Origin: Muricea muricata
Taxonomy: Eukaryota; Cnidaria; Anthozoa; Malacalcyonacea; Plexauridae
NCBI GenBank assembly: GCA_963855995.1
Contig: OY979716.1
Span: forward strand, 45,040,213 to 45,104,212
Length of the DNA stretch: 64,000 nucleotides
Reading direction: 5' to 3'
Within the stretch, counting starts at the first letter, position 1; the number at the start of each line of letters is the position of its first letter. The translations under genes and the position numbers were made by a program. Shown here piece by piece: positions 32,162 through 54,109 of the stretch. The notes under the pieces were generated by a model. That model had not been told where the DNA came from. It did no database searches and was given only the letters and a program-made list of their open reading frames with translations.

Positions 32162-32191
32162 CAACCAAGACCAAGCAATGGCAAGTGGTGC

Positions 32192-32323
32192 GCAGAAATT
32201 CTACGCTCGAGTTACCCACATTAGGGGTAATCGCAGGAGTCAACCCAGTCTGTTAGTGCAATGAAAGGGCCTCATCCTGAGAGGACCTCCTAGTTGATCA
32301 AGGTGCCTCTCGCGTCAGGTAAG
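32192..32323 (-). ncRNA. U1 snRNA: U1 snRNA body (locus 1), cut at the Sm site
   Basis: From 32323 the minus strand reads CTTACCTGACGCGAG (the 5'-splice-site pairing end). Stem-loop I (GAGAGG paired with CCTCTC around TTGATCAACTAGG), the U1A loop CATTGCACTAAC, the single-stranded CTCCTGCGATTA, stem-loop III (TACCCCTAATGTGGGTA) and the Sm-type site GAATTTCTG follow. At about 32192 it stops and continues as the promoter of the next U1 copy, so stem-loop IV is lost. Its first 15 nt are the duplicated LINE target; the real 5' end is 18.6 kb away at 50933. It cannot give normal U1. Confidence 0.92.
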
Positions 32324-32710
32324 TTTATATTTTAAAGATGGCGATTCCGTCCCTACTGAGGGAACGTGCAATGGAATGCCATATTTCAGGGTGTGCACCC
32401 GCATGCAAACGACTGGGGAGTCGAGCCCCAACCCTGACTAAGTATGTGCACTGGCTATTGTTTTTGCAGTGACGCGGCACTGGCACATATTTCTGTTAAC
32501 ATCAATACAAAAGGACATATTGACGAACGGGACAGCAAACAGGACAGAAAACAACATAATCACAAACCAAACATAAAATGCGTGCCTAATTCGATTATGA
32601 TTACATGCCCCTACAATTAAAAAGCTAAAATTAGCTACCTATACTAAAACTCGTGGACGGAGTGACACGCTAAGGTCACACCGGGATTAAAAAGAGAATA
32701 AAAAGGACAC

Positions 32711-33375
32711 TCAGAAGGCAAAGACCAATTCCATACCCTCAAAGTGCCCTAAAGAACCACGGGCAAGCCACTCCCGCTCAAACGCGCAAATTTGAGCAGG
32801 AGACTTACACCGCTTACTAAGTAAACCCAATATAAATTTAGTTTTAGCAATAGCCTGACTAAAACATTTTGAAGCGATCAGCATCCTCTGACGGAAACGG
32901 AAGTCACAACAGGCAACCCAGATGGTGTGTTTCATGACTAGAAGCATGAAGATAATGATAGATGGGATTATCCGCCGACGAACCTCCGAAAAACCGAACA
33001 GCAACTCCTCCACAGTGAAACGACCAGCGATGGGGTTGATGTTATGTAATTGCTGGAACACCCATGCAACTAGGATTTGAGCTACTTGACCCTCAAAAAA
33101 GAGGTGTTCCAGCGTTTCGTCCCCTGCCTTGCAAAAGCAAAGGCTGTCCACATGCTGCATGTGGAAATGGTGGCCAAGCGAGCCCCAGTGTACAAAATGC
33201 TGTGGGCAACCTGCCAATTGAGATCTATTACCTTACGGTCCACATCGCAGATGTGCAGCTGACTCCAAGTTTGGGGCCAGTGCAACGGACCGTAAGTTGG
33301 CAGGAATTTGTCTACACAATGGGGCTGCTTGTAGCTGCGCGACCGTAATGCATCGTATGAGTTTCTGGAGGAGAG
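32711..33375 (-). pseudogene. LINE D ORF2, C-terminal remnant
   Basis: It begins after the deletion and matches LINE A ORF2 from PTYGPLHWPQTWSQLHICD to the end. It includes the zf-RVT-type cysteine motif (CFCKAGDETLEHLFFEG, with the last Cys changed to Gly) and the terminal RGSLGHFEGMELVFAF. A frame change lies near 33150-33217. No endonuclease or polymerase part remains. Confidence 0.8.
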
Positions 33376-34033
33376 CTGCTCAAGTGGAATAGGAGGAGGG
33401 TGCGGGAGGAGATTTCCGGGCCTGCCGCAACTTCAGACAGCCCCTGCCCGTATGCCCCACCTCCTGGCACACGAAACAGGTCGGTGGCTGCCCTCGGTAG
33501 CGGAAGGAGACCGAAAAACCACCTATATTTATATTGGCAGGGATGGGTTTCGTGATTACCATGGATACCCTATGCGTGCCGGATTTAACGGAAGGAAAAC
33601 CCTTCACCTTCAGATGTTGAATAGAAATGACCCGACCGTAGGGCACCAAAGTATTAAATAAATATTGATCCTGGATTTGTAGAGGAGCTTGATCTACAAA
33701 AACGGGCTTAACTTCCTCATACGCAGGAAGGGGGGCTAGTTGAATACCCCGAAAAGCAATGCCATTAACATCGGCAGCATGCCGATTCGATGAATAGCGG
33801 TACTCAATCCTATATCGAGTGGGGGACAAGGCTTGTACTGCAGCAACTTTGCGCTCCCCAATGGCATTAATCAGTTCTTTTCTCAACTGTGGGATCTTTG
33901 ATGTTTTTACTAGACGGGATGGAATATTTACAACCGAAGTGGTTTGATTCCATCTTTGAAAATCCACAGCTGAGAACTTAATAGTGTTGTTATTAGGGCT
34001 AGTATTATTTGTATTATTCTGGCTGGTAGCCAT
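33376..34033 (-). pseudogene. LINE D ORF1, N-terminal part
   Basis: The start MATSQNNT at 34033 is chosen because the same MATS start is conserved in A, B and E. It carries FQRWNQTTSVV, RKVAAVQAL, AYEEVKPVFVDQAP, YGRVISIQHLKVKGF and the CCHC knuckle CFVCQEVGHTGRGC. Soon after the knuckle the protein ends at the deletion joint. The ORF1 product binds element RNA. Confidence 0.8.
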
Positions 34034-34777
34034 GGTTCTTGTTATGATGGTGTAATGGAGGGAATTAAATAAAGGATATATACAAAATCCAGTACAACAC
34101 ACACTCTCTAATAAATAAATTAGAGACAAAAAACGAGAAAAAAATCACTGGATAAAACAGACAAAATTCCCAAAAGCAACAAAAACAAAACTTAATGCTT
34201 AAAAAGCTCTAAAAGAACCTACTATTAAAAGGTGCCTGTGCAATTGCGTACAATTGACCCACAGACAACTAAAAACCTTTTAATAGACTACCGATAGTAT
34301 TTACCTAATGTAAATACTATCAAAGACGCGCCCAAAACCTGAAGGTAAAAGATGACCAAGAACCCCAACAGGAAGCGTCAAAGAAACCAGAAAAAAGTGA
34401 TCCCTGACCTTTGAGTCCCCTTACTCGACCGGCCCAACCACTGAAAAACTAGTACCCTCTACCTAAATGTATTTACACTATGTGCAAAATGTGGAGGGAG
34501 TTGCCCTGCTAGTCAGGAACAACGGAAGAACCAGCGAACTGGTTAAAAAAGAAAAAGAAGGGGATTTGTTGCCAGTCGGACAAACTGAGGCTAACCCTCA
34601 GCCGGACTGAGCAACATAAGAAAACTACTAGAAGGTGTAAGCGTAATGGCGTGTTTATACCCAAGCACAATGGGGGGTATAACTAGTAGAATCCGGCACA
34701 GTCGTGTTAAGGGCTCCAATCCCTAGCATAGACGTCCACACCTGCCCGGTCAAAGACACTAACGCGAGTACAAGTGA

Positions 34778-34792
34778 CTCGCGTCAGGTAAG
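34778..34792 (-). repeat. U1 target copy between LINE D and unit A
   Basis: CTTACCTGACGCGAG on the minus strand, identical to the first bases of the locus-1 U1 body. It is the duplicated target recreated by insertion. Confidence 0.85.
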
Positions 34793-35096
34793 TTTTTATT
34801 GCAAGTCCTGCTCCCGACACCAAGAGGGTCGTGCAATGGTCGCAAGATGAAATGCAACTTAGAAGGCCCCCGTTCGCGAAACCGCACTTTTCCGTGAAGA
34901 AAAGCCCGCTACAGGTACCGAACCTCCCAGAGCACGAAACTAGTAGGCCGTGAAGCGCTACTAGCTAAAATCTCCAAAAGGAGAACAAAAAATACAACCC
35001 GCTGGGCGTACGATACAGGAGGAAAAAAACTGCTGGGCGAACCATACAGTAAAAGGTGCCTGCTGGGCTAACCATACAGACGAAAACTTAACCTAC
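34793..35096 (-). mobile_element. SINE-like unit (copy A) in the U1 target
   Basis: About 304 bp bracketed by two U1 target copies (CTTATCTGACGCGT upstream, CTTACCTGACGCGAG downstream). It begins TGTAGGTTAAGTTTTCG, has about three tandem copies of CTGTATGG-TTCGCCCAGCAGG, then several hairpins (CTAGTAG...CTACTAG; CTTTTCTTCACGGAAAAG). It ends ATTGCACGAC...GACTTGCAATAAAAA. No open frame. It recurs after LINE B and LINE C but not D, so it is an independent insertion and probably a non-autonomous passenger. Confidence 0.72.
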
Positions 35097-35553
35097 ACGC
35101 GTCAGATAAGTTTGTATTTTAAAGATGGCCATTCTGTCCCTGCTGAGAGAACGTGCAATGGAAGGCCATATTTCAGGGTGTGCACCCGCACGCAAACGAC
35201 TGGGGAGTCGAGCCCCAACCCTGACTAAATATGTGCACCGGCTATTTAGTTTCCTTTCGGCGACGCGGCACTGGCAACATATTTAGTGCTAACATTTAAG
35301 ACAAAAGGACATATTGACGAACAATCCTAACACATATATCAAAGAAATGGACATATTGACAATCCTAACATATAGATAAACGAACGGACATATTGACAAT
35401 CCTAAACATAGAAGTACAAGAGGGACATATTGACGAACATGTACAGGAACCCTTACCAATTAACAATTAATTAGAATAATCTAACTAATAATAAAAAGAA
35501 AGGACGATGCGACACGCTAAGGTCACATCGGGAATTTAATAAAAGGACGACAC

Positions 35554-38500
35554 TTAGAAGGAGAAGACAAGCTCCTGGCCCTCCAAGTGCCCCAAAGAAC
35601 CACGATCAAGCCACTCTCGCTCAAACGCGCGAATTTGAGCAGGGCTCTTGCACCGTTTAAATAATAAGTGTAAAATGAATTTCAATTTGGCTATAACCCT
35701 ATTTAAACATTCACTAATTATCGGCGTCTTCTGACGAAATCGGAAATCACAACGAGCAACCCAGATGGTGTGTTTGACGACCAACAGCATGTAAATAATG
35801 ATTGTTGGAATTGCTCGATGTCGTGCCTCCAAAAACCCAAACAATAGCTCCTCGACGGTAAACCGACCTGCGGTTGGATTGGTGGTATTTAAGTTAAAGT
35901 ATACCCATGCAACCAGGATGCGAGCCAGCTCGCATTCGAAGAACAGATGCTCGAGAGTCTCGTCGTCAGCACGACAAAAACAGAGACTCTCAATGTGGCG
36001 CATGCCGAAGCTATGCGCGAGACGAGCACCTGTGTATAGCACGCCGTGTGCTATCTGCCAGTTGAGATCGATCACTTTACGGTCAAGATCGCAAATGTGC
36101 AACTGACTCCAGGTTTGAGACCAGTGCAACTGACCATAAGTTGGCAGATATTTCTGGATGCAGTGAGGCTCTTTGCTGTTACGAGCCTGTAAAAGGGCAT
36201 ACACATTCCGTGAGAATATTTGTTCTAAGCCAAGAGGTACATCAGAAGACGCATTTAAACTGAGCACATCGCCATTTGCTACGCCACCACCCAAGGTCTG
36301 CCATACCTTATGGATGGTTTGGTAGAATGCAGGAAGTTGTTTCATCTGCTGGCGATAGTACTCAGATAATAGCGCATTGCGTGGCTGCATGTCAAAGGCC
36401 GACATGTAAAAGTGCGTGAAAAAGGCTTTCCATTTGCCCTCAGAAGGGGCAAAGAAGCGCTTCAGCCACTGCAATGCGAACGAGTCAGCCTTATCTTTGA
36501 AGTTTATAACCCCAAAACCACCTTGGGCTTTGGGAAGGCTGACCGTTTTACGTGCCACAAGATCTCGTTTGCCCGACCAAAAGAACTTCCAGACTGCCAT
36601 ATTAATGCGTTTTCCGGCCCAAAATGGCACCGGAAAAACGTGGCATAAATGCCAAACCTGGGACAATGCCAGGCTGTTGATGACGACTGTCTTTCCTTGG
36701 AAAGACAGTTGACGGCCTGCCCAAGCAGAAAGTCGCGATTCCAAGTTACTAACTGCCGGTTCCCATGTTGGCGTGCTGTAGTAGCCAACGCTGAAGGTCG
36801 CTCCGAGCAGGGGTAGTTGTTTTACCCACTGCAACCCATAAGGGGTGTCTTGGCGATCCTTCCACGAACCGGCCCACATTCCTTTCGACTTTCCGCGATT
36901 TAGCCGAGCACCTGAGGCACATTCGAATTTATTATAGACGTTGAACGTCTCCTCTATGGACTGATCGTTGGTCACGGCTACGGTCGTATAATCAGCGTAG
37001 CCGGAGCATTTGCGTGGGTCCATCGAGTGCGGGATGGTAACGCCGGTGATTCTTGGTGACTTACGAATACACTCGGCGAGCACCTCGATGGAGAGCACAT
37101 ACAAGAGAAGAGACAAAGGACATCCCTGTCGAACACCCCGCGAGGGGCGAAAGAAAGAAGATGTCCAGCCGTTGATGACGACGGCAGATTCAACGTCCGT
37201 GTAGAATAATTTGACCCAGTTCATAAAATCTGGGCCAAAGTTAAACGTTTCGAGTACTCGATGCAGGAAACCCCAATCAACTCGATCAAATGCCTTCTCT
37301 TGATCTAAAGAGAGAAGGGCCAGGGGGAGGTTTTCCCGTTCGACGTACTCGAGGAGATCTCTGATCGTAAAAAGATTCTCGCTAATGGACCTGCCACGTA
37401 CGCCACACGTTTGGTCAGGTCTAATAATGCTTCCCATGACACCGAGAAGTCGTCCAGATATAGCCCTAGTGGCGATCTTATAATCCACATTCAAGAGACT
37501 AATCGGACGCCAATTCTTGGTGTCCAGTTTATCGTTCTTCTTGTAAAGAACGATAATCAAACCTCGGCGCTGTGAGGTGGAGAGTTGGCCGGTCTCAAAC
37601 GCAGCGTTGAGAACCCGGACCAGATCGGCGCCAACGGTTTGCCACAATGTTTGATAGAATTCCATTGGGAAGCCATCCGAACCTGGGGTTTTACACTTAG
37701 GCATACCCTTGAGAGCTTCAAAACACTCATCAAGGGTAAGATTGCCTTCGCAGCCAGCTCTCTCGGCCGTACTCAGACGACAATGGAGTTGAGAGAGCAT
37801 TTCGTCTTGCGCAACAGGATCACAATCCTGTGTCGTAAACAGGTTCGAATAATACGAGCGCCACACACCCAGGATCTCGAATGGGTCGTGACGTACGAGT
37901 CCAGTTTCCGGATCGCATATAGAGTTCATCGTCTGTTGGGCTTTATGGTGTGTTTCTAAATTCAAGAAGAAGGAAGACGAAGTCTCTCCTTCTTCGGCCC
38001 ATTGGCAACGAGCGCGCACCTGTGCCCCTCGTGCCTCGTGCAGAGCGATGCCTTGCAATTCCTGCTGGACTTCGCATAATTTGCCAAATGCAGTTCGATC
38101 CCCCCGGTCGAACGATCTTTTTAACTGATGCATTTGGCGTGTGAGAGAGGTTTTCTTGCTGCGTTGGTCGGCAGCTTTCGAACGAGAATACGAACGAGTA
38201 ACCTCTCTCAAATAAAATTTACCCTGGTCCCACCAGTCCATAAGCGAGGCAAAATCCTCGTGATGTTCTAGGGACTGCCAATGGGACCAGAAAAAGCTCA
38301 CCAGGCTGACGTACTCGGGATCTTTCAGGAGGGATGTATTGAATTTCCACACTCCTGGGCCCGAGTCTATCTTTGGCAAAAGATGGAATTTCACCAAAAG
38401 ATACTGATGGTCTGTGAGGAATGACGGATGGTATTCGCATTCCTCAATCGAGTCAGCCATAACTGTTGGAGCCCACACCATGTCGATTCGCGACGCACGA

Positions 38501-39099
38501 TCACCCGATCCGTGCGTCCACGAATACGCTATGCGTCCTGGATGTAATTGACGCCATAGCGCGTAAGTTTGCGTGTATGACATGAGCGACTCCAATGCAG
38601 CGACACTCTCACGTTTGTGCGCAAAGCGATTAAGTTCGTGAGAGGGATCTCTCATTCGATCCACTTCTGGATGGAGAACGGAGTTAAAGTCGCCCCCGAT
38701 AAAGACGGGGCGCGATAGATCAATTAAGTCTGTTAGTGATGTAAAATAGCGATTACACTCCGGGTTCGTGTTCGGAGCGTATAGCGAGACAAAACTTAAT
38801 TGATTCTTTCCAAAGTCTATAAAGACTTGTATAAAGCGGCCATGTTCATCTTTGATAATCCTAGAGATCTTATAGGTATCTTTTACTAGTATGGCGACGC
38901 CTGCACTCTTTGATGTAAATGAAGAGGAGGCGACGCGATAGCCGCTGTTGGCTAACCACTTCCTGGCCGATTCGTGCGAAGGGGTGTGCGTCTCTTGTAG
39001 ACACACGACATCAGCCTTCATACACTTTAACCAGTCGACCAGGGCGGTTCGCTTAGTGTGGTCATTAAGACCGTTGATGTTGACTGAAATCAAATTCAT
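35554..39099 (-). CDS. LINE A ORF2: endonuclease-reverse transcriptase
   Basis: 1181 residues. An apurinic-type endonuclease fills residues 1-235 (NINGLND 8-13; LQETH 34-38; GGDFN 135-139; SRIDMVW 203-209; TDH 229-231). The reverse transcriptase follows, with KKNDKLDTKNWRPISLLN, SLDQEKAFDRVDW, SRGVRQGCPLS and the YADD box, here YADY at 701-704 (codon 36990-36988). A zinc motif of zf-RVT type (CFCRADDETLEHLFFEC) lies near residue 1040. The protein nicks the U1 target and primes cDNA there. The second catalytic Asp is replaced by Tyr, so this copy should not polymerise although the frame is fully open. The start overlaps the end of ORF1 in another frame. Confidence 0.92.
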   Translation of the reverse strand: MNLISVNINGLNDHTKRTALVDWLKCMKADVVCLQETHTPSHESARKWLANSGYRVASSSFTSKSAGVAILVKDTYKISRIIKDEHGRFIQVFIDFGKNQLSFVSLYAPNTNPECNRYFTSLTDLIDLSRPVFIGGDFNSVLHPEVDRMRDPSHELNRFAHKRESVAALESLMSYTQTYALWRQLHPGRIAYSWTHGSGDRASRIDMVWAPTVMADSIEECEYHPSFLTDHQYLLVKFHLLPKIDSGPGVWKFNTSLLKDPEYVSLVSFFWSHWQSLEHHEDFASLMDWWDQGKFYLREVTRSYSRSKAADQRSKKTSLTRQMHQLKRSFDRGDRTAFGKLCEVQQELQGIALHEARGAQVRARCQWAEEGETSSSFFLNLETHHKAQQTMNSICDPETGLVRHDPFEILGVWRSYYSNLFTTQDCDPVAQDEMLSQLHCRLSTAERAGCEGNLTLDECFEALKGMPKCKTPGSDGFPMEFYQTLWQTVGADLVRVLNAAFETGQLSTSQRRGLIIVLYKKNDKLDTKNWRPISLLNVDYKIATRAISGRLLGVMGSIIRPDQTCGVRGRSISENLFTIRDLLEYVERENLPLALLSLDQEKAFDRVDWGFLHRVLETFNFGPDFMNWVKLFYTDVESAVVINGWTSSFFRPSRGVRQGCPLSLLLYVLSIEVLAECIRKSPRITGVTIPHSMDPRKCSGYADYTTVAVTNDQSIEETFNVYNKFECASGARLNRGKSKGMWAGSWKDRQDTPYGLQWVKQLPLLGATFSVGYYSTPTWEPAVSNLESRLSAWAGRQLSFQGKTVVINSLALSQVWHLCHVFPVPFWAGKRINMAVWKFFWSGKRDLVARKTVSLPKAQGGFGVINFKDKADSFALQWLKRFFAPSEGKWKAFFTHFYMSAFDMQPRNALLSEYYRQQMKQLPAFYQTIHKVWQTLGGGVANGDVLSLNASSDVPLGLEQIFSRNVYALLQARNSKEPHCIQKYLPTYGQLHWSQTWSQLHICDLDRKVIDLNWQIAHGVLYTGARLAHSFGMRHIESLCFCRADDETLEHLFFECELARILVAWVYFNLNTTNPTAGRFTVEELLFGFLEARHRAIPTIIIYMLLVVKHTIWVARCDFRFRQKTPIISECLNRVIAKLKFILHLLFKRCKSPAQIRAFEREWLDRGSLGHLEGQELVFSF

Positions 39100-41674
39100 C
39101 GTTTGATTCCAGCGTTAAGGGGAGAAACTCCGGTGAGAGAGGGAGCTTGGGACTGGACAACTCCGTAAGGAGTGCCCGGTTAATTTCGTCGATGGTGGTG
39201 GGCTCGTGCGTAGATTCGATGGCGTAAACAGGTGCGCCACTCACCAATCGATCGAACAACCCCTGCGACGAAGCAGGGGAAGGTAAAAAATCAGTTGACG
39301 AGGCGACCGAGCCTGGCGGCGACTCGTCCCCATCAACTGAAGGTCTGTAAAAGACCGGCGTGTTTATACTCGCAGGAGAGGAGATTGGCGTTATCTCCCC
39401 CCCTGGCGGCGATATGGGGACCACTAACAGGTCGTAAATTAACGAGGGATCTGGGCCGATTTCACCAGGCTCCAAGATCCCTATCTCAACTCCGATTAGG
39501 GGAGGGGTACCTCGTAGGTCAGGCACGACTTCCGAGGCCCAAGATACCTCCCCTTCGTCTCGAACTTGTGTGAGGATATCTTCCTCCTCTTGCATTAGCA
39601 CCCCTAAGGGCGTGGCCATAGGGTCAAGCGTGACCTCTGCCTCTGGTCGTGCAACGTCTAATGTTGTCACGACCGGCGCTGTGGCTGGGATTGCCAGTGT
39701 CCTATCCAATGGGACTAATGACATATCCTCAGCTGATTGTTGTTCTTGTTGTTGTCGTTGAAGTGCTACATCTGATGTAGCACTTGGCGCCTCTAATGCG
39801 GGCAACGATGGTGTTTGCCCGAAGGAAGAAATTGGCGTTGTTTGCCAATACTCGATAGCAAGGGGGTCGATGACCGATGACCCCGAAAGACAATAGTCGA
39901 GTTCCTCATCTGGAGGAGTTTTGGAGTTGAGCCGGCGTCTCTTATTCTTGTGCAACACGGCGAGGGGAATATCGTCCCTGTCTATTTCTGCCTGTGTTGC
40001 AGTGACCTTAGCCCTACCCCCCGTCGGCTCTGTCCACGTCGATGTTGTGATCGTGGAGCTCGATCGAGAGGTAGTTGTTGATGTTGTTATTGTGGCTGGT
40101 GTTATTGCCTGCGAAGGGCCACTTCGACGCCTACGAACCCATAGTGTGGTTATCGTGCGCACAGCGGTGCGCACTGGGCCAGATTTCGCAGCAGCCTGTT
40201 GTTCGGCCTTGATGATACTGGCCGCGAAATCTGCCTCCGTGATTCCCTCTGACTCGCTAGCCGATTTTATGGGCATGTTGAATTGTGATCTTAATTGTTT
40301 CAATTGCTGAGTCAGAGGTGGTGAAGTCGAGTGAGACTGAACTCTCAATGGACTGTCAGCCTCACTCTTTAACTGGATGGGTTTGGTGACCCCATCCAGT
40401 TTGGTCTTCGGATCAGCGTGATCCGAAGATCTCTCATCATCCATTGACTGGACGGATGATGAGTCTCTGATTTCTCCCGGCTCTAATTCGTCGTCCGATG
40501 GTGGTGGAACGTTAAACATCTTGCGTAAAGTTGCAAGATGTTGAGCCGGGGGCGATGTTGTTATTTCAGAAGTCTCCTGTGAAGGCTGAGTATCCATCAA
40601 CTCAGCCACGGCTTTGGGGGATCGAGCGACCTCATCTTTAGAATTTACGTCACCAGTAGCACTCGATCGACCCTTTGACAATGACTGGCCTTTGGCACGG
40701 CCAGCCTTCGATTTGGTCGGGAGAGATTTTGAAGCAGGAGCCTGTTCTGCCTCCGAAGATTTTAACATGGTCTCCTGCTTTTTATTTAACTTATTTCTTA
40801 GATCTGTCTCCCCCAACGGAGACTTCTTTTTAATTTGTGTTGTCTGGACCGTGCGCTTGGCACCGTCCAGTTTTATTTTGAGGTCGTCGTGACCTAAGGC
40901 AGGCTTATTGTTGTTAATTGCCTTTTTAATGCTCTGTTTGGTGTTGTTTTGAGCTGTGTTTTTTCCCGTCGCTTTGGGGAGGTTTTGTTGTTGTTGTTGT
41001 TGTTCTTGTAATTTCCTCCCCTGTCTTGATTTTGGGCAGTCCTTGCTCGCATGTCCCACCTCTTGACATACGTAGCATTGCGTGGGCTGCCCACGGTAAT
41101 TAAACACGACGGGAAATCCCCCAATGTTGATAATGCGTGGGATGGCCTTGGTCACGACCATTGACACCCTACGCGTGCCAGATCGCACGGATGGAAAACC
41201 CTTAATTGTTAGGTGCTGGACGCCAATAACGCGTCCGTAGGGTGCCAATGCTTCATATAAATGTTTGTCCTGCATGTGAAAAGGAGCCTTCTCAACGAAG
41301 ACCGACTTGACCTCCTCATATGCAGGCAATGGCGTTAAATGCACGCCTCTAAAATTAATGCCGTTGATTTCGGCGGCGTGCTGGTCCGATGATCTTTTGA
41401 ATTGGATATTGTATTTGAAGGGAGACAAGGCCTGCACAGCAGAAACCTTGCGCTCCCCAACGGCATTGATGAGTTCTTTACGCAGCTGCGGAATTTTGCT
41501 GTCCTTAACTAGGCGCGATGGGATATGGACCACCGTAGTGGTTTGATTCCAACGCTGGAAATCCGCAGCTGTAAATTTAGTGTTAGTGCCAGCATTGATG
41601 TTGGTTTTGCTGGCATTTGCATATGTGTTGTTGTTATGCATATTTGCAGTATTGTTATTCAGGCTCGTAGCCAT
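39065..41674 (-). CDS. LINE A ORF1: CCHC RNA-binding protein
   Basis: 869 residues from MATSLNNN; this start is conserved in four copies, whereas the ATG at 41728 is not. The N-terminal conserved block (residues 34-190: FQRWNQTT, KIPQLRKELINAVG, AYEEVKSVFVEKAP, YGRVIGVQHL) precedes a single CCHC knuckle at 200-213. A long basic then acidic, low-complexity tail follows (polyglutamine near 225, MDTQPSQ, ELEPGEI repeated). It probably packages the RNA and brings ORF2 to the nucleus. The last 35 bp overlap ORF2, so ORF2 is likely translated by reinitiation or frameshifting. Confidence 0.9.
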   Translation of the reverse strand: MATSLNNNTANMHNNNTYANASKTNINAGTNTKFTAADFQRWNQTTTVVHIPSRLVKDSKIPQLRKELINAVGERKVSAVQALSPFKYNIQFKRSSDQHAAEINGINFRGVHLTPLPAYEEVKSVFVEKAPFHMQDKHLYEALAPYGRVIGVQHLTIKGFPSVRSGTRRVSMVVTKAIPRIINIGGFPVVFNYRGQPTQCYVCQEVGHASKDCPKSRQGRKLQEQQQQQQNLPKATGKNTAQNNTKQSIKKAINNNKPALGHDDLKIKLDGAKRTVQTTQIKKKSPLGETDLRNKLNKKQETMLKSSEAEQAPASKSLPTKSKAGRAKGQSLSKGRSSATGDVNSKDEVARSPKAVAELMDTQPSQETSEITTSPPAQHLATLRKMFNVPPPSDDELEPGEIRDSSSVQSMDDERSSDHADPKTKLDGVTKPIQLKSEADSPLRVQSHSTSPPLTQQLKQLRSQFNMPIKSASESEGITEADFAASIIKAEQQAAAKSGPVRTAVRTITTLWVRRRRSGPSQAITPATITTSTTTSRSSSTITTSTWTEPTGGRAKVTATQAEIDRDDIPLAVLHKNKRRRLNSKTPPDEELDYCLSGSSVIDPLAIEYWQTTPISSFGQTPSLPALEAPSATSDVALQRQQQEQQSAEDMSLVPLDRTLAIPATAPVVTTLDVARPEAEVTLDPMATPLGVLMQEEEDILTQVRDEGEVSWASEVVPDLRGTPPLIGVEIGILEPGEIGPDPSLIYDLLVVPISPPGGEITPISSPASINTPVFYRPSVDGDESPPGSVASSTDFLPSPASSQGLFDRLVSGAPVYAIESTHEPTTIDEINRALLTELSSPKLPLSPEFLPLTLESNDEFDFSQHQRS

Positions 41675-42460
41675 GGTAATTTTAAACGAACTATAAAATA
41701 TATACAATAAAAGACCGTAGAGTCGCACACGAAGGCTCTATTCCAAATAGAGTCCTTCAAAACAAACGAGGAAATGACTCTAGGTCTTCGCTAAACACAA
41801 TTGTCGCCTAAAACCTACCTACTATTAAGGGACGCTTACGCTGGCACGTACTCCAAACGCAAGATCTGATCTAAAATAATGTCCCTTAATAGAATACAGC
41901 AAGGATCGATACGATGACCCTTACTGTGACCACGAAGAGTACTTCAATCGTATGAAGCACTCCAAAGACGCGCTCAAAACCCGAAGTTAAAAGATGAGAA
42001 GTTTAAGAACCCCGACAATGAAGCGTCAAAGATGCCTGAAAAAGATCACCCGGTGGCCTTTGAGTCTCCTCGACTCAACGGGCCCAACCACGGAAGAACT
42101 ATAAACCACTACCTAAAACGTGTCCGCAATACGTTATGGTGCAAATAATTATGCAGGGAGGTGCCCAGTTAAGCCGGACACCGGAAGACAAGGTAGGCTA
42201 GCCCTACCCACTGATCTCCGAAGAGACCAGCAAAGAAAAGAAAGGGGATTTGCTGGCAGTCGTACCAACTGAGGCTAACCCTCAGCCCGACTGTCCCCAG
42301 CAGAAGTAAACTACAAGAAGTGTAAGATTGGAAATGTCCGCACCAAGCACCTAGGGGGCACGGCTAGTTGTGTTCCTTCTACCCGGAGTTAGGGTCACCA
42401 ATACCCAGCATCGACAGTCCTCAGGTAAAAGGACGAAGGCACTAACGCGAGTGCAAGTGA
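41675..42460 (-). promoter_or_regulatory. LINE A 5' untranslated region with conserved hairpins
   Basis: Contains the inverted pair CTATTAAGGGAC / GTCCCTTAATAG (41821-41893) and the GAGGCTAACCCTC hairpin near 42270. Both are kept in B; in D and E the first pair has changed on both sides to CTATTAAAAGG / CCTTTTAATAG. Such paired change points to a working RNA structure. No promoter motif was recognised; elements inside snRNA genes may use the host snRNA promoter. Confidence 0.55.
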
Positions 42461-42475
42461 CTCGCGTCAGGTAAG
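42461..42475 (-). repeat. U1 target copy between LINE A and unit B
   Basis: CTTACCTGACGCGAG on minus, identical to the other target copies of locus 1. Confidence 0.85.
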
Positions 42476-42778
42476 TTTTTATTGCAAGTCCTGCTCCCGA
42501 CACCAAGAGGGCCGTGCAATGGTCGCAGGATGAAATGCAACTTGGAAGGCCCCCGTTCGCGAAACCGCACTTTTCCGTGAAGAAAAGCCCGCTACAGGTA
42601 CCGCACCTCCCAGAGCACGAAACTAGTAGGCCGTGAAGCGCTACTAGCTAAAATCTCCAAAAGGAGAACAAAAAATACAACCTGCTGGGCGTACCATACA
42701 GGAGGAAAAAACTGCTGGGCGAACCATACTGTAAAAGGTGCCTGCTGGGCTAACCATACAGACGAAAACTTAACCTAA
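42476..42778 (-). mobile_element. SINE-like unit (copy B) in the U1 target
   Basis: About 303 bp, closely similar to unit A throughout, with a few substitutions such as CATACTG for CATACAG. It lies between target copies at 42779-42792 and 42461-42475. The 3'-terminal stem TCCTGC/GCAGGA around ATTGCAC is perfect in this copy. Confidence 0.72.
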
Positions 42779-43216
42779 ACGCGTCAGGTAAGTTTGTATT
42801 TGTAAAAACGACATGTCCGTCTCTACTGAGAGATCGTGCAATGGAATGTCGTATTTCAGGGTGTGCACCGGCACGCAAACTACCAGGGAGACGATCCCTG
42901 ACCCCGACTAAATGTGGACACCGGCTATTTAGATTCCTTTCGGCGACGCGGCGCTGGCCCACATTTAGCGCTAACATAAAGGACAAAAGGACATATTGAC
43001 GAACAATAGACAATCGCAATCCTAACACGTAAAAGAACAAACAGACATATTGACAATTCTAAACATAAAATACGAACGGGACATATTGACAATCCTAAAC
43101 ATATACGGGAACCCCTACCGATTAACAATTAATTAGAATTATCTAACTAATATGATAAAATAATGGATGATGTGACACGCTAAGGTCACATCGGGAATTA
43201 ATTAAAAGGACGACAC

Positions 43217-46200
43217 TTAGAAGGAGAATACAAGTTCCTCACCCTCCAAGTGCCCCAAAGAACCACGGGCAAGCCACTCTCGCTCAAACGCGCGTATTTG
43301 AGCAGGGCTCTTGCACCGTTTAAATAATAATTTTAAAATGAATTTTAATTTAGCTATAATTTTATTTAGACATTCGCTAATAATTGGCGTCTTCTGACGA
43401 AATCGGAAGTCACAACGAGCAACCCAGATGGTGTGTTTAACAACCAAAAGCATGTAAATAATGATTGTTGGAATTGCTCGACGTTGTGACTCCGAAAACC
43501 CAAACAGTAGCTCCTCAATGGTAAACCGACCAGCGGTTGGATTGATGGTAGATAGATTAAAGTATACCCATGCAACCAGGATGCGAGCCAGCTCGCATTC
43601 AAAGAACAGATGCTCGAGAGTCTCGTCGTCAGCACGACAGAAACAAAGACTCTCTATATGGCGCATGCCGAAGCTATGCGCGAGACGAGCACCTGTGTAA
43701 AGCACACCGTGTGCTATCTGCCAGTTGAGATCGATAACTTTACGGTCAAGATCGCAAATGTGCAACTGACTCCAGGTTTGAGACCAGTGCAACTGACCGT
43801 AAATTGGCAGATATTTCTGGATGCAGTGAGGCTCTTTGCTGTTACGAGCCTGCAAAAGGGCATACACATTCCGTGAGGAAACTTGGTTTAATTCTAAAGG
43901 AACATCAGAAGACGCATTTAAACTGAGCACATCGCCATTTGCTACGCCACCACCCAAGGTCCGCCATACCTTATGGATGGTTTGGTAGAATGAAGGAAGT
44001 TGTTTAATCTGCTGGCGATAGTGCTCAGATAATAGCGCATTGCGTGGCTGCATGTCAAATGCCGACATGTAAAAGTGCGTAAAGAAGGCTTTCCATTTGC
44101 CCTCAGACGGGGCAAAGAAGAGCTTCAGCCACTGCAATGCGAACGAGTCAGCCTTATCTTTGAAATTTATAACCCCAAAACCACCTCGGGCTTTGGGAAG
44201 GCTGACCGTTGTACGTGCCACAAGATCTCGTTTGCCCGACCAAAAGAACTTCCAGACCGCCATATTAATGCGTCTCCCGGCCCAAAATGGCACCGGAAAG
44301 ACGTGGCATAAATGCCAAACCTGGGACAAAGCCAGGCTATTGATGACGACTGTCTTTCCTTGGAAAGACAGTTGACGGCCTGCCCAAGCAGAAAGTCGCG
44401 TTTCCAAGCTATTCACTGCCGGTTCCCATGTTGGCGTGCTGTAATCGCCAACGCTGAAGGTCGCTCCGAGCAGGGGTAGTTGTTTCACCCACTGCAACCC
44501 ATAAGGGGTATCCTGGCGATCCTTCCACGAACCGGCCCACATTCCTTTCGACTTTCCGCGATTTAGTCGAGCACCTGAGGCACGTTCGAATTTATTATAG
44601 ACGTTGAACGTCTCCTCCATAGATTCGTCGGTAGTCACGGCTACGGTAGTAGGGAGCTTTAGATTTGACTACGGCTACGGCTACGACTACGGCTACGACT
44701 ACGAGACTTGATGGCGTGTGCAGAAGTCGTAGTCGTTCTCGTTTCTGTTCGAACTTTATTTACAAGAAAAACAAGCAACGAGAAATGAAGTTTCCGTAAA
44801 TTAATTTTTATATTGTCCATAACTCTCTCTACAAGGTTAGCTCTTTATGCGAAGAACAGTGTACGAACTAATTGCAAGTAAGTGTAGAATAAAAAAACAA
44901 ACAAGTAAGTGTTGAATAAAAAAACAAACCAGATAATATTTATAACGAGGTTGCAACTACAATTATATTTCAAAGTTTTAGGACTACTAGGACTATATAT
45001 TCAAGAATATATTGTTAAGAACATAAAAAATCACAAATCTATATATGACACATAAGTACAAAAATTGCTAGCTAGAATTTCGCGGTGTAGTTCGCTTATG
45101 TTTGTTTATGGTTTGTTCATATATCATGTATCCTTGATAGCTAATTAAGCAACAAAGTGCACCTCAAAATTTCCCGTTATAATTACGCTACTGCTTGAAA
45201 AAAGACTGCATAAACGCTAAGAATATGTCAAATATTTCTACAGATAATTTTTGAAGAAACGCAAACGTAAACTAACTTTCAATAGTATTTAAAAAGTCGT
45301 AGTGAGTACTATGAGATTTCTGCAAAATGTCGTACTCAGATGAGCGACGGCTACGACTTTTTCTCGTTAGTACGAGATGGCGTCAGCATATGGCGTGCAC
45401 TTGGCGCAAAAATGACTAATCTCATAGTCGTAGCCGTAGTCAAATCTAAAGCTCCCTAGTGTCGTCAGCGTAGCCGGAGCATTTGCATGGATCCATCGAG
45501 TGCGGGATGGTAACGCCGGTGATCCTTGGTGACTTGCAAATACACTCGGCGAGCACCTTGATGGAGAGCACATACAAAAGAGGAGACAATGGACACCCCT
45601 GTCGAACACCCCGCGAGGGGCGAAAGAAGGAAGATGTCCAGCCGTTGATGACGACGGCAGATTCAACGTCTGTATAGAATAGTTTGACCCAGTTCATAAA
45701 ATCTGGGCCAAAGTTAAACGTTTCGAGTACGCGATGCAGGAAACCCCAATCAACTCTATCAAATGCCTTCTCTTGATCTAAAGAGAGAAGGGCCAGGGGG
45801 AGGTTTTCCCGTTCGACGTACTCGAGAAGATCTCTGATCTTAAATAGATTCTCGCTTATGGACCTGCCACGTACGCCACACGTTTGGTCAGGTCCAATAA
45901 TGCTTCCCATGACACCAAGTAATCGTCCAGATATAGCCCTAGTGGCGATTTTATAATCCACATTCAAGAGACTAATCGGACGCCAATTCTTGGTGTCCAG
46001 TTTATCGTTCTTCTTATAAAGAACGATAATCAAACCCCTGCGCTGTGAGGTGGATAGTTGGCCGGTCTCAAAAGCAACGTTGAGAACGCGGACCAAGTCG
46101 GCGCCAAGGGTTTCCCACATTGTGTTGTAAAATTCCATTGGGAAGCCATCCGAACCTGGGGTTTTACCCTTAGGCATACCCTTGAGAGCCTCAAAACACT

Positions 46201-47572
46201 CATCAAGGGTAAGTTTGCCTTCGCAGCCAGCTCTCTCGGCCGTACTCAGACGGCGATGGAGTTGAGAGAGCATTTCGTCTTGCGCATCAGGATCGCAATC
46301 CTGTGCCGTAAACAGGTTCGAATAATACGAGCGCCACACACCCAGGATTTCAAATGGGTCGTGGCTTACGAGTCCAGTTTCCGGATCGCGTATAGAGTGC
46401 ATCGTCTGTTGGGCTTTATGATGTGTTTCTATATTCAAGAAGAAGGAAGACGAAGTCTCTCCTTCTTCGGCCCATTGGCAACGAGTGCGCACCTGTGCCC
46501 CTCGTGCCTCGTGCAGAGTGATGCCTCGCAATTCCTGCTGGACTTCGCATAATTTGCCAAATGCAGTTCGATCCCCCCGGTCGAACGATCTTTTTAACTG
46601 ATGCATTTGGCGTGTGAGAGAGGTTTTCTTGCTGCGTTGGTCGGCAGCTTTCGAACGAGAATACGAACGAGTAACCTCTCTCAAATAAAATTTACCCTGG
46701 TCCCACCAGTCCATAAGCGAGGCGAAATCCTCGTGATGTTCGAGGGACTGCCAATGGGACCAGAACGAGCTCACCAGGCTGACGTACTCGGTATCTTTCA
46801 GGAGGGATGTATTGAACTTCCACACTCCTGGGCTCGAGTCTATCTTTGGCAAAAGATGGAATTTTACCAAAAGATACTGATGGTCTGTGAGGAATGACGG
46901 ATGGTATTCGCATTCCTCAATCGAGTCAGTCATAACTGTTGGAGCCCACACCATGTCGATTCGCGACGCACGATCACCCGATCCGTGCGTCCTTGAATAT
47001 GCTATGCGTCCTGGATGTAATTGACGCCATAGCGCATAAGTTTGTGTGTATGACATGAGCGACTCCAATGCAGCGACACTCTCACGCTTGTGCGCAAAGC
47101 GATTAAGTTCGTGAGAGGGATCTCTCATTCGATCCACTTCTGGATGGAGAACAGAGTTAAAGTCGCCCCCGATAAAGACGGGGCGCGATAGATCAATTAA
47201 GTCTGTTAATGATGTAAAATAGCGATTACGCTCCGGGTTGGTGTTCGGAGCGTATAACGAGACAAAACTTAATTGATTCTCCCCAAAATCAACAAAAACT
47301 TGAATAAAGCGGCCATGATCGTCTTTAATGATCCTAGAGATCTTGTAGGTATCTTTTACTAATATGGCGACGCCTGCACTCTTTGATGTAAAGGAAGAGG
47401 AGGCGACGCGATAGCCGCTATTTGCGAACCACTTCCTGGCAGATTCATGGGAAGGGGTGTGCATCTCTTGTAGACACACGACATCGGCCTTCATGCATTT
47501 TAACCAATCTACCAGTGCGGTTCGCTTGACATGATCGTTAAGTCCGTTGATGTTGACTGAAATCAAATTCAT
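43217..47572 (-). pseudogene. LINE B ORF2: endonuclease-reverse transcriptase, split by MITE
   Basis: The start MNLISVN is at 47572; the upstream in-frame extension to 47809 lies in ORF1 and is not conserved. Part 1 (47572-45462) holds the endonuclease (LQEMHTP, with the LQETH Thr changed; GGDFN; SRIDMVW) and reverse transcriptase up to an intact CSGYADDT. Reading then runs into the insert and stops (REL). Part 2 (44648-43217) resumes with VAMTTDESMEE and runs to the normal end, including the CFCRADDETLEHLFFEC zinc motif. Removing the insert and one duplicated AGT would restore a continuous frame. Confidence 0.9.
44649..45461. mobile_element. 813-bp MITE with AGT duplication inside LINE B
   Basis: The ends are AGGGAGCTTTAGATTTGACT and the inverse, extending to about 31 bp (into ACGGCTACG). 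Tandem CTACGGCTACGACTACG steps follow on the left and a related GACGGCTACGAC on the right. Comparison with the uninterrupted LINE C site shows that AGT is present once there and on both sides here. The interior is AT-rich without coding capacity. A 3-bp duplication fits PIF/Harbinger or Zator; the family is not assigned. Confidence 0.85.
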
Positions 47573-50126
47573 TGTTTGATTCCAGTGATGGGGGTAAAAA
47601 CTCCGGTGAGAGAGGGAGCTCTGGACTGGACAATTCCGTAAGGATTGCCCGGTTAATTTCGTCGATGGTGGTGGGCTCGTGTGCAGATTCAATGGCGTTA
47701 ACAGGTGCGCCACACACCAATCGATCAAACAACCCCTGCGACGAAGCAGGGGAAGGCAAAAAATCAGTTGACGAGGTAACCGACCCTGGCGGCGACTCGT
47801 CCCCGTCAATTGAAGGTCTGTAAAAGACCGGCATATTTATGGTCACAGGAGAGGAGATCGGCGTCATCTCCCCCCCTGGCGGCGATATGGGGACCACTAA
47901 CGTGTCGTAAATCAATGAGGGATCTGTGCCGATTTCACCGGGCTCCAAGATCCCTATCTCAACTCCGATTAGGGGAGGGGTACCTCGCGGGTCAGACGCG
48001 ACCTCCGAGGCCCAAGATACCTCCCCTTCCTCTCGAACTTGTATGAGGATTTCTTCCTCCTCTTGCATTAGCACCCCTAAGGGCGTTGCCATGGGGTCGA
48101 GCGTGACCTCTGGCTCTGGTCGTGCAAGGTCTAATGTTGTCACGACCGGCGCTGTTGCTGGGATTGCCAGTGTCCCATCCAATGGGGCTAATGACATATC
48201 CTCAGCTGATTGGTGTTGTTGTTGCTGTTGTTGAAGTGCTACATCTGATGTAGCACTTGGCGCCTCTAATGCGGGCAACGATGGTGTTTGCCCGAAGGAA
48301 GAAATTGGCGTTGTTTGCCAATACTCGATAGCAAGGGGGTCGATAACCGATGACCCCGAAAGACAATAGTCGAGTTCTTCATCTGGAGGAGTTTTGGAGT
48401 TGAGTCGGCGTCTCTTATTTTTGTGCAACACGGCGAGGGGAATATCGTCCCTGTCTATTTCTGCCTGTGTTGCAGTGACCTTAGCTCTACCCCCCGTCGG
48501 CTCTGTCCACGTCGATGTTGTGATCGTGGAGCTCGATCGAGAGGTAGTTGTTGATGTTGTTATTGTGGCTGGTGTTGGTGCCTGAGAAAGGCCACTTCGA
48601 CGCCTACGAACCCGTAGCGTTGTTATCGTGCGCACGGCGGTGCGCACTGGGCCAGATTTCGCAGCAGCCTGTTGTTCAGCCTCGATGATACTGGCCGCGA
48701 AATCTGCCTCCGTGATTCCCTCTGACTCGCTAGCCGATTTTATGGGCATGTTGAATTGTGATCTTAATTGTTTCAATTGTTGAGTCAGAGGGGGTGAAGT
48801 CGAGTGAGACTGAACTCTCAATGGACTGTCAGCCTCACTCTTTAACTGGATGGATTTGGTGGCCCCATCCAGTTTGGTCTTCGGATCAGCGTGATCCGAA
48901 GATCTCTCATCATCCATTGACTGGACGGATGATGAGTCTCTGATTTCTCCCGGCTCTAATTCGTTGTCCGATGGTGGTGGAACGTTAAACATCTTGCGTA
49001 AAGTTGCAAGATGTTGAGCCGGGGGCGATGTTGTTATTACAGAAGTCTCCTGTGAAGGCTGAGTATCCATCAACTCAGCCACGGCTTTGGGGGATCGAGC
49101 GACCTCGTCTACAATCACGTCATCAGTAGCACTCGATCGACCCTTTGACAATGACTGGCCTTTGGCACGGCCAGTCTTCGATTTAGAAGCAGGAGCCTGT
49201 TCTGTCTCCGAAGATTTTAACATGGTCTCCTGCTTTTTATTTAATTTATTTCGTAGATCTTTCTCCCCCAACGGAGACTTCTTTTTATTTTGTGTAGTCT
49301 GGACCGTGCGCTTAGCCCCGTCCAGTTTTATTTTGAGGTCGTCGTGACCTAAGGCAGGCTTATTGTTGTTAATTGCCTTTTTAATGCTCTGTTTGGTGTT
49401 GTTTTGAGCTGTGTTTTTTCTCGTCGCTTTGGGGAGGTTTTGTTGTTGTTGTTGTTGTTCTTGTAATTTCCTCCCCTGTCTTGATTTTGGGCAGTCCTTG
49501 CTCGCATGTCCCACCTCTTGGCATCTGTAGCATTGCGTGGGCTGCCCACGGTAATTAAACACGACGGGAAATCCCCCAATGTTGATAATGCGTGGGATGG
49601 CCTTGGTCACGACCATTGACACCCTACGCGTGCCCGATCGCACGGATGGGAAACCCTTAATTGTTAGATGTTGGACGCCAATAACGCGTCCATAGGGTGC
49701 CAATGCTTCATATAAGTGTTTGTCCTGCATTTGAAGAAGAGCTTTCTCAACGAAAACGGACTTGACCTCTTCGTATGCAGGCAATAACGTTAGTTGCACG
49801 CCTCTAAATGCTATGCCGTGTATTTCGGCGGCCTGCCGGTCCGATGATCTTTTAAATTGCAAGTTATATTTAATGGGAGACAAGGCCTGCACAGCAGCGA
49901 CCTTGCGCTCCCCAACGGCATTTATCAATTCTTTACGTGGCTGCGGAATCTTGCTATTTCTGATTAAACGTGATGGAATGTGGACCACCGAAGTGGTCTG
50001 ATTCCAACGCTGAAAATCCGCAGCTGTGAACTTAATGTTAGTGCCAGCATTGATGTTGGTTTTGCTGGCATTTGCATAGGTGTTGTTATTATGCATATTA
50101 TGGTTTGTATTCAGGCTCGTAGCCAT
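47538..50126 (-). CDS. LINE B ORF1: CCHC RNA-binding protein
   Basis: 862 residues from MATSLNTN; the layout is the same as LINE A ORF1. The conserved block is followed by the knuckle CYRCQEVGHASKDC, a polyglutamine run and the long charged tail ending EFDFSQHQRT. It overlaps the start of ORF2 by 35 bp. Small differences from A (a missing LPTKS stretch near residue 320, shorter N-terminal Asn run) show that the two copies are separate insertions. No stop or shift was seen. Confidence 0.9.
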   Translation of the reverse strand: MATSLNTNHNMHNNNTYANASKTNINAGTNIKFTAADFQRWNQTTSVVHIPSRLIRNSKIPQPRKELINAVGERKVAAVQALSPIKYNLQFKRSSDRQAAEIHGIAFRGVQLTLLPAYEEVKSVFVEKALLQMQDKHLYEALAPYGRVIGVQHLTIKGFPSVRSGTRRVSMVVTKAIPRIINIGGFPVVFNYRGQPTQCYRCQEVGHASKDCPKSRQGRKLQEQQQQQQNLPKATRKNTAQNNTKQSIKKAINNNKPALGHDDLKIKLDGAKRTVQTTQNKKKSPLGEKDLRNKLNKKQETMLKSSETEQAPASKSKTGRAKGQSLSKGRSSATDDVIVDEVARSPKAVAELMDTQPSQETSVITTSPPAQHLATLRKMFNVPPPSDNELEPGEIRDSSSVQSMDDERSSDHADPKTKLDGATKSIQLKSEADSPLRVQSHSTSPPLTQQLKQLRSQFNMPIKSASESEGITEADFAASIIEAEQQAAAKSGPVRTAVRTITTLRVRRRRSGLSQAPTPATITTSTTTSRSSSTITTSTWTEPTGGRAKVTATQAEIDRDDIPLAVLHKNKRRRLNSKTPPDEELDYCLSGSSVIDPLAIEYWQTTPISSFGQTPSLPALEAPSATSDVALQQQQQQHQSAEDMSLAPLDGTLAIPATAPVVTTLDLARPEPEVTLDPMATPLGVLMQEEEEILIQVREEGEVSWASEVASDPRGTPPLIGVEIGILEPGEIGTDPSLIYDTLVVPISPPGGEMTPISSPVTINMPVFYRPSIDGDESPPGSVTSSTDFLPSPASSQGLFDRLVCGAPVNAIESAHEPTTIDEINRAILTELSSPELPLSPEFLPPSLESNNEFDFSQHQRT

Positions 50127-50915
50127 GGTGATTTTAAACGAATTACAATAATCAAATATATACAATAAAAGACCGTAGAGTCGCGCACGAAGGCTCTATT
50201 CCAAATAGAGTCCTTCAAAACAAACAAGGAAATGACTCTAGGTCTTCGCTAAACACAATTGTCGCCTAAAACCTACCTACTATTAAGAGACGCTTACGCT
50301 GGCACGTACTCCAAACGCAAGATCTGATCTAAAATAATGTCCCTTAATAGAATACAGCAAGGATCGAAATGATGACCCTTACTGTGACTACGAAGAGTAC
50401 TTCAATCGTATGAAGCACTCCAAAGACACGCTCAAAACCCGAAGTAAAAAGCGAGAAGTCCAAGAACCCCGACAATGAAGCATCAAAGATGCCTGAAAAA
50501 GATCACCCGGTGGCCTTTGAGTCTCCTCGACTCGACGGGCCCAACCACGGAAGAACTATAAACCACTACCTAAACGTGTCCACAATACTCTATGGTGTAG
50601 TAATTAAGCAGGGAAGTGCCCAGTTAAGCCGGACACCGGAAGACAAGGTAGGCTAGCCCTACCCACTGATCTCCGAAGAGACCAGCAAAGAAAAGAAAGG
50701 GGATTTGCTGGCAGTCGTACCAACTGAGGCTAACCCTCAGCCCGACTGTCCCCAGCGGAAGTAAACTACAAGAAGTGTAAGATTGGAAATGTCCACCCCA
50801 AGCACCTGGGGGGCACGGCTAGTTGGGTTCCTTCTACCCGGAGTTAGGGTCACCAATACCCAGCATCGACAGTCCTCAGGTAAAAGGACAAAGGCACTAA
50901 CGCGAGTGCAAGTGA
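50127..50915 (-). promoter_or_regulatory. LINE B 5' untranslated region
   Basis: Very similar to that of LINE A, with the hairpin pair CTATTAAGAGAC / GTCCCTTAATAG (one mismatch) and the GAGGCTAACCCTC hairpin. The first bases, TCACTTGCACTCGCGTTAG, are shared by A, B and, with changes, D and E, fixing the 5' end of full-length copies. It lies 18 nt behind the U1 start site. Confidence 0.6.
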
Positions 50916-50933
50916 CTCGCGTCAGGTAAGTAT
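50916..50933 (-). ncRNA. U1 snRNA: U1 snRNA 5' end (locus 1)
   Basis: ATACTTACCTGACGCGAG, the canonical AUACUUACCUG start of U1, is followed at once by LINE B. The remaining U1 sequence lies at 32323-32192 beyond three LINEs and two short units. It marks the original insertion point after about U1 nucleotide 18. Confidence 0.92.
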
Positions 50934-50958
50934 GAGTTGTTGAGCGCAGGCACTCACG

Positions 50959-51017
50959 TTTTATTCAGCCAACAAGAATGGAATTGGACGTGGTTCTGCC
51001 AGCACTCTAATTTGCAT
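50959..51017 (-). promoter_or_regulatory. U1 promoter: octamer and TATA-like box
   Basis: ATGCAAAT, the snRNA-enhancer octamer, is at 51017-51010 (77-84 bp upstream of the U1 start). AATAAAA is at 50965-50959 (26-32 bp upstream). The U2 gene in this window has ATGCAAAC and GATAAA at matching distances. Transcripts from here would now enter LINE B. A PSE in between is expected but I could not identify it. Confidence 0.65.
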
Positions 51018-54093: not shown

Positions 54094-54109
54094 ATACTAC
54101 GCTTGATCT
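54094..54109 (-). ncRNA. U2 snRNA: U2 snRNA fragment between two insertions
   Basis: AGATCAAGCGTAGTAT, matching U2 AGATCAAGTGTAGTAT, the region that pairs with the intron branch site. It lies between LINE F and the 2.4-kb insertion. Confidence 0.85.

Follow-up and report, generated by a model that had tools for sequence, protein, structure and literature searches.

Layout of the window

The window, a 64-kb stretch of DNA at C1:45.04-45.10 Mb of an assembly of 453 Mb in 74 contigs, holds U1 sequences interrupted by head-to-tail stacks of LINEs and short non-autonomous units. All of the U1 LINEs, units and U1 sequences lie on the minus strand and are described here in descending order. The longest stack begins with the upstream, promoter-side flank of a first U1 copy (U1-a; 50934-51020), which is a near-match to the flanks of unbroken U1 genes on contig C16 (...GAATAAAACGTGAGTGCCTGCGC...CTC/ATACTTACC), and with U1 nucleotides (nt) 1-18, the 5' copy of the target (ATACTTACCTGACGCGAG; 50916-50933). 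LINE B (42794-50915; delimited by ORFs, starts and repeats) has an open ORF1 (50126-47538) and a broken ORF2. It is succeeded by SINE-like unit 1 (42477-42779), flanked by U1 sites at 42793-42780 and 42476-42461, and then by LINE A (35112-42460), in which both ORF1 (41674-39065) and ORF2 (39099-35554) are open. Unit 2 (34794-35097), again between U1 sites, and LINE D (32325-34777), in which an internal deletion has left the N-terminal part of ORF1 (ORF 34144-33380) and the 3' end, complete the stack. U1 resumes at 32324 from ACTTACCTGACGCGAGAGGC onward; this U1-a body (32190-32326) is 3' truncated, contains the 3' target copy (32324-32309) and was recognized by Rfam RF00003 with 101.3 bits. 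A U1 site was present at every joint. This order and the common direction of the elements and U1 had been proposed in a first-pass annotation of the window, and both were borne out by the coordinates, the strand and the Rfam match to the U1 body. The head-to-tail stacks of LINEs and units inside U1 genes are therefore confirmed.

The same annotation had placed an identical 13-15 bases of U1 at every joint. The sharing held, but the length did not: the joint before LINEs is 16 nt (ACTTACCTGACGCGAG, with the first A ambiguous), that before units is 14 nt (ACTTACCTGACGCG), and the joint at 35111 differs by one C-to-T change. Each joint in the window corresponds to U1 nt 3-16/18. With up to one mismatch allowed, ATACTTACCTG was present at 10 places in the window, where 1.02 would be expected, and 0 of 100 shuffles reached 10; 7 of these matches were U1 joints and 3 lay elsewhere. 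Two further loci had been described as showing the same arrangement. At 60537-64000, the 3' part of LINE E (61035-64000; delimited by its ORFs and its genome locus, L035) runs past the window end and is followed by unit 3 (60702-61020), which precedes the U1-c gene (60538-60703; RF00003, 126.1 bits). The other locus (30793-32130; from sequence comparison) starts at 32130 with a decayed U1 start, ATTCTTCCTGGTGCGAA, behind an upstream flank that is still U1-like (TTGGTTGAATAAAA), and continues with a 5' fragment of LINE F from ~32113 down; Rfam found no U1 body there.

A U2 gene of the window is split as well (51560-60104, minus strand). Its 5' part (60104-60078) is followed by a second LINE lineage (~60077-54110, ends approximate), the U2 bases AGATCAAGCGTAGTAT, a second element (~54093-51725) and the U2 remainder from ATCTGTTC (51724) down. 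The two long ORFs of the second element (335 and 286 aa; 51931-53755, minus strand) gave no Pfam match. The other L1/Tx1-like LINE found in a U2 gene is on L002 (3400-3680, 5310-5340), a eukaryotic-looking contig that is assigned to a bacterial MAG (symbiont of Taylorina sp.; Taylorina is a bivalve), with its endonuclease part off the contig.

The U1 LINEs follow a plan of ~7.27 kb, with a 5' UTR, an ORF1 that combines two RRM-like folds with a CCHC knuckle, and an ORF2 with an APE endonuclease, a reverse transcriptase (RT) and a zinc-binding-like end. In LINE A, Pfam recognized PF00098 (CCHC) in ORF1 and PF03372 (APE endonuclease) and PF00078 (RT) in ORF2; PF13966 fell just below the cut-off at the weakly zinc-binding-like C-terminus of ORF2. 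The best PDB match of ORF2 was human L1 ORF2p (E = 2e-78, residues 3-868), with R2 reaching only 2e-17, and ORF2 is clearly an L1/Tx1-like protein with APE endonuclease and RT. The N-terminal 206 residues of ORF1 were predicted to form two RRM-like domains (pLDDT 76, pTM 0.50). This model matched the RRM pairs of HuC, HuR and Sxl with a Foldseek E of ~1e-7, at TM-scores of only ~0.3 over both domains, and Pfam detected no RRM in ORF1. ORF1 combines the CCHC knuckle with RRM-like folds that are predicted with moderate confidence.

Among 6240 candidates, 347 related ORF2 proteins were obtained. The named relatives in the best 120 were from Paramuricea clavata (57% and 41% identity), an octocoral, which also supplied the sole species-named relative of ORF1 (49%); a cnidarian host of the LINEs is therefore possible. 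An RT tree of 42 rows was built from 37 of the 120 listed relatives together with the window and MAG sequences. A clade of 11 (100/100) contained the U1 family and a separate clade of 6 (98/94) the window's U2 LINE, whereas L002 stood apart on a long branch. Three scans of viral contigs returned no relatives; genome contigs returned 6 loci, all on MAG contigs, of which only L002 was informative.

Genome-wide distribution and target site

The ORF2 search gave 42 matches. As 39 of the 4187 first-look candidates were scored and loci were taken from the best 30, old degraded copies elsewhere may be missed. Of these 30 loci, 28 end at the U1 site, running directly into U1 (10), into the next LINE (12) or into a unit (6). 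The remaining 2 (L009 and L027) lie outside U1 in satellite-like repeats, so the specificity is not absolute. A search for the LINE 3' end with a 28-nt pattern and up to 3 mismatches found 69 ends genome-wide, and 0 with the reversed pattern. As many as 61 were in C1:44.44-45.91 Mb or C16:6.10-6.52 Mb, two U1 regions that together cover 1.89 of 453 Mb and whose limits were drawn after the 3'-end matches had been seen. U1 followed after 21-22 nt at 20 of the 69. The 8 ends outside the two regions comprise L009, L027, two at C1:38.57 Mb in a stack whose joints are U1-type (L036), three at C1:56.8 Mb, one of them beside a U1-type joint and one with a unit ~350 nt behind it, and one at C1:41.93 Mb.

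The opposite ends gave a similar picture. When the flank was ignored in the search, 68 LINE 5' ends were found (reversed-pattern control, 2), and the U1 site, with at most 2 mismatches, was present at 64 of them; another 3 sit 55-59 nt behind the 3' pattern of another element, as judged from coordinates only, and the one on contig C3 looks like a chance match. A search for LINE 5' junctions gave 74 (reversed control, 0), of which 68 were inside the two U1 regions. The letter before ACTTACC is the T of a true U1 start in 42 of them and an A left by another element in the other 32. Separately, 97 U1 starts were matched (reversed-pattern control, 0), 73 unbroken and 24 directly preceded by an element end. 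In all, 73 unbroken U1 starts compare with 42 entered by a LINE. The 24 U1 bodies behind an element end are fewer than the 42 entered starts, and diverged bodies (U1-c, GACGCAGGAGG) escape the pattern. The units have 37 3' ends (reversed-pattern control, 0), 29 in C1:44.44-45.91 Mb and none on C16; in places their head-to-tail spacing is 317-318 bp, with runs of three at C1:45.56 and 45.65 Mb. The ORF2, 5'-end and 3'-end counts agree with the earlier claim of a U1-specific family and contradict, genome-wide, the view that most copies lie outside U1 genes. A genome-wide U1-specific LINE group is real, and nearly all of its copies are at one site of a multicopy gene, as in a target-specific LINE.

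Most U1 starts belong to a tandem array on C16 (~6.33-6.51 Mb), with steps mostly of 1634-1638 bp and, beyond ~6.479 Mb, of 1662-1681 bp. The 30 U1 loci that were fetched, out of 42 listed, all from C16, share a common upstream flank and an unbroken ATACTTACCTGACGCGAGAGGCACC. One LINE in this array (L067, L015) is preceded by ...CTCAT-ACTTACCTGACGCGAG and followed by ACTTACCTGACGCGAGAGGC. When this filled site was compared with unbroken U1 genes of the same array, ACTTACCTGACGCGAG was found on both sides, which is a 16-bp target duplication. The flanking U1 genes are 10,554 bp apart, that is 2 x 1634 + 7286, from which an element of ~7.27 kb plus the duplication is obtained. The 16-nt duplication would place the nicks at U1 nt 2/3 and 18/19, with the first A ambiguous. 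The cuts near U1 nt 3 and 18 that had been suggested from the window thus appear to fit the single clean insertion inspected, and the idea that each insertion restores its target agrees with the 16 bp copied at both ends.

Target-primed reverse transcription at one U1 site best accounts for these features in both the LINE family (~7.27 kb) and its non-autonomous partner of ~300 nt. In the order that we infer, a nick by the endonuclease in the template strand, at U1 nt 2/3, would leave ...CAGGTAAGT-3'OH, and this freed 3'OH would prime the synthesis of cDNA from the LINE RNA, starting at its 3' end. The second strand would be cut after U1 nt 18. As the comparison with unbroken U1 genes shows, the 16-bp stagger is copied at both ends; the full target is thereby recreated by each insertion, and stacks can grow. 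The large homogenised U1 array would presumably make the insertions tolerable.

A second site is used in the same U1 repeat. A sister family has an ORF2 74-75% identical to that of the U1 LINEs (5 matches). In the 3 of 5 copies inspected, it ends at ...TATAA-ACTTACCCAA, which is 124 bp away from the U1 start on the upstream side. The U1 site and the -124 site share ACTCATACTTACC. The second-site insertions are L070, L071 and L072, together with L048, a LINE with a D-type 3' end. LINE D has a near-identical 3' end and sits in the U1 site itself, so the 3' end does not dictate the choice of target. The two copies outside U1 were at ACTTGTCTTATACCTG within a (CTTATACCTGT)n minisatellite (L009) and at ACTATCGAAATG within a satellite-like repeat (L027). 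They represent different 3' subfamilies, yet both off-U1 copies (L068, L069) begin at element nt 58-59 (n = 2). This position would agree with an internal transcription start there, and equally with U1 sequence being required for completion of the first 57 nt.

The stacks might instead stem largely from unequal recombination among U1 repeats that had received one or a few insertions by chance, with no strong preference for the target. U1 does lie in a tandem array with near-uniform steps, and local duplication is present: the neighbours L029 and L030 are 100% identical and 7292 bp apart, and L011, L013 and L014 are 99.8-99.97% identical at ~14-kb steps. However, when 26 of the 30 loci were compared pairwise, 4 of the 5 stacked neighbour pairs were only 95.7-97.8% identical. 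A single stack intersperses units with subfamilies that differ in their 3' ends, and 42 LINEs have a U1 start of their own. U1-type joints occur both in the C16 array and at several places on C1, and the two off-target copies indicate that insertion also happens elsewhere. The suggestion that the arrays are duplications of one random insertion was contradicted by these comparisons, and an origin mainly by recombination is considered very improbable. U1-targeted insertion by L1/Tx1-like LINEs and their non-autonomous unit is the best explanation of the data, and we hold it with high confidence. As a separate observation, one LINE copy (L073, C1:45.516 Mb; 87% identical) has no 3' end of its own and is fused into the interior of a unit, as if by recombination.

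The 3' hairpin and the 5' junction

In the U1 LINEs, AUUGCAC occupies a one-sided loop that separates the outer stem from the inner hairpin, and ends 41 nt before the 3' end of the element. The example in LINE E is at 61048-61092 (minus strand), with homologous hairpins at 35125-35169, 42808-42852 and 32338-32382. The sister family, which was fetched as a test of the motif with no prediction written beforehand, has AUUGCAC ~42 nt from its end in a different stem. The motif is 37 nt from the end of the unit and 43 nt from the end of the U2 LINE of the window (at 54156, in a slice that includes 3 nt of U2), where it reads C[AUUGCACCGUC]G. The L002 element has AUUGUAC ~40 nt from its end. ATTGCAC was present in 62 of 69 LINE 3' ends and 35 of 37 unit ends, as found with search patterns that were built with the motif. 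By chance, AUUGCAC appeared in 6, 28, 43 and 45 of 3000 shuffles of a 100-nt end (0.2 to 1.5%), the ends being not fully independent.

The pairing was evaluated in an alignment of 10 chosen distinct sequences, with other distinct ends, including L009, left out. In this alignment 93.8% of the cells pair, AUUGCAC is kept in all 10 sequences and the C-G pair next to it in 9; L009, outside the alignment, is without the C. Changes on both sides affect 6 of the 16 pairs, a number reached by 4 of 500 shuffles, and the covariation score of 0.335 was larger than in all 500 shuffles and in the slid controls (<=0.086). Related sequences can exceed shuffles without any structure; the slid controls keep the relatedness. 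Further pair types showed no excess over shuffles in this alignment (235/500). Of the 8 distinct 3' ends among the 30 loci, only 2 showed the full hairpin clearly as the minimum-energy fold (the end shared by L008, L025 and L035, and that of L016), and it was also clear in LINE D, LINE E and the sister family; the commonest 3' end (9 of 30 loci) folds with a different inner part. The z-scores for folding were modest, at -0.7 to -2.4 for the LINEs, -1.5 and -1.6 for the units, -1.0 for the U2 LINE and +0.5 for L002.

U1A recognizes AUUGCAC specifically, makes contact with the closing C-G pair, and has this site both in U1 stem-loop 2 and in an internal loop of its own pre-mRNA, according to the sections of PMC2203988 available to us. 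In Drosophila, a single protein, SNF, serves both U1 and U2, and the U1 loop used with it is C[AUUGCACCUC]G (PMC5992148, accessible part). The loop of the U2 LINE, C[AUUGCACCGUC]G, resembles this Drosophila loop. The LINE 3' hairpin is a putative binding site of host U1A/SNF, and the LINEs of snRNA genes might form a guild that borrows this spliceosomal protein to reach snRNA loci or to be primed there. If true, this would explain why related lineages occur in U1, in the region upstream of U1 and in U2, and yet are confined to snRNA genes. We regard the guild reading as rather unlikely. Probably, the hairpin is only the RT's own recognition structure at the 3' end, and resembles the U1A site by coincidence. 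A common 3' tail is frequent among LINE/SINE pairs, homology between the LINE families means that they are not independent tests of the motif, and AUUGCAC in a single 100-nt end is not very rare in the shuffles. Moreover, the motif is not fixed: among the 3' ends, 7 of 69 from LINEs and 2 of 37 from units lack ATTGCAC, L009 no longer has the C of the closing pair, and the distant L002 has AUUGUAC. The folding z-scores are also modest. An accidental match is harder to reconcile with a loop that is kept throughout the alignment while the flanking pairs covary, with its recurrence in the sister family, in the unit and in a U2 LINE that belongs to another clade, with the contacts of U1A to AUUGCAC and a C-G closing pair, and with the likeness of the U2 LINE loop to the Drosophila U1 loop used with SNF.

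The 5' junction raises a comparable question. U1 nt 9-18 and the first 19 nt of the LINE can pair into a hairpin across the junction (50897-50925, minus strand; RNA folding), with -16.7, -17.4 and -15.1 kcal in three cases, for which 2, 1 and 10 of 2000 shuffles were as good; z was -4.6 and -2.9, and -3.5 in copy F. It is possible, although we lean against it, that the LINE is transcribed from the intact U1 promoter upstream and that its RNA begins with U1 nt 1-18 and folds into this hairpin. The 42 LINE 5' ends that keep the T of a U1 start would agree with such transcription, as would the energies and the decayed copy F, in which both arms differ and the pairing is kept. On the other hand, the arms of copy F could also reflect copying between the arms of a palindrome, the junction window ranked 2 of 139 in the 5' UTR control, where a distant window reached -16.1 kcal against -16.7, and the start of both off-target copies at nt 58-59 would fit an internal start there. 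The hairpin is suggestive only.

Two candidate features of the unit were rejected. Its 5' end resembles an inverted copy of U1 strikingly by eye, but 1191 and 1474 of 2000 shuffles pair as well; a tRNA-derived head was not supported, as ARAGORN found no tRNA. Separately, the 5' UTRs of LINE F (31605) and LINE D (34244), on the minus strand, carry AUUGUAC and AUUGCAC side by side, an arrangement reminiscent of the paired boxes in the U1A pre-mRNA.

Comparison with known systems

Target-specific APE LINEs are already known as a general kind. The U1 target, the division of one repeat between two sites and the U1A-like 3' hairpin appear to be new. No report of a U1 LINE was found in the open full-text literature, a scope that leaves Repbase and subscription papers outside, so that a database-only or unpublished record is possible. 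The available portions of PMC3706591 and PMC8869645 contain no mention of one, and the elements reported in snRNA genes by 2015 were only Keno, Utopia (U2), Dada-U1 and Dada-U6, as given in the accessible text of PMC4640811. With the present family, U1 joins the short list of LINE target genes, and two sister families divide one repeat unit. The 3' hairpin makes the homing of a LINE to a small gene family directly addressable by binding and mutation. The bottom strand of the target, CAGGTAAGT, is the consensus 5' splice site, which makes an endonuclease that tells U1 from genomic splice sites a good subject for studies of specificity and targeted insertion.

Among solved structures, human L1 ORF2p is the closest to the U1 LINE. 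L1 is not known to be gene-specific, and its ORF1p is not known to have a CCHC knuckle, in contrast to the U1 LINE. The internal-loop site of the U1A pre-mRNA (PMC2203988, available part) also places AUUGCAC between two helices, as in the LINE hairpin; that site is in a host mRNA, whereas the LINE motif belongs to a retrotransposon RNA, close to its 3' end. Dada-U1 likewise inserts in U1 genes, also in tandem, and has ATTGCAC/GTGCAAT near its transposon ends, with ATTGCAC in U1 itself, according to the accessible sections of PMC3706591. It is a DNA transposon with a DDE transposase that duplicates GCGAAT/GCGAAC, apparently at another position of U1, and the RT and APE endonuclease of the U1 LINE set the two apart. 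Utopia shares with the U1 LINE a multicopy snRNA gene target (U2), co-existing families and occasional tandem insertion (PMC4640811, in part), but Utopia and R2-type elements have a restriction-like endonuclease, and an assignment to them was rejected in view of the APE-type endonuclease of the U1 LINE. Keno has an APE-type (AP-like) endonuclease and a set site in a spliceosomal snRNA gene (PMC4640811, same portion). Its target is U2, whereas the U1 LINE enters U1 with a 16-bp duplication and stacking and belongs to an RT clade apart from that of the U2 LINE in the window; the U1 LINE is therefore not a Keno element.
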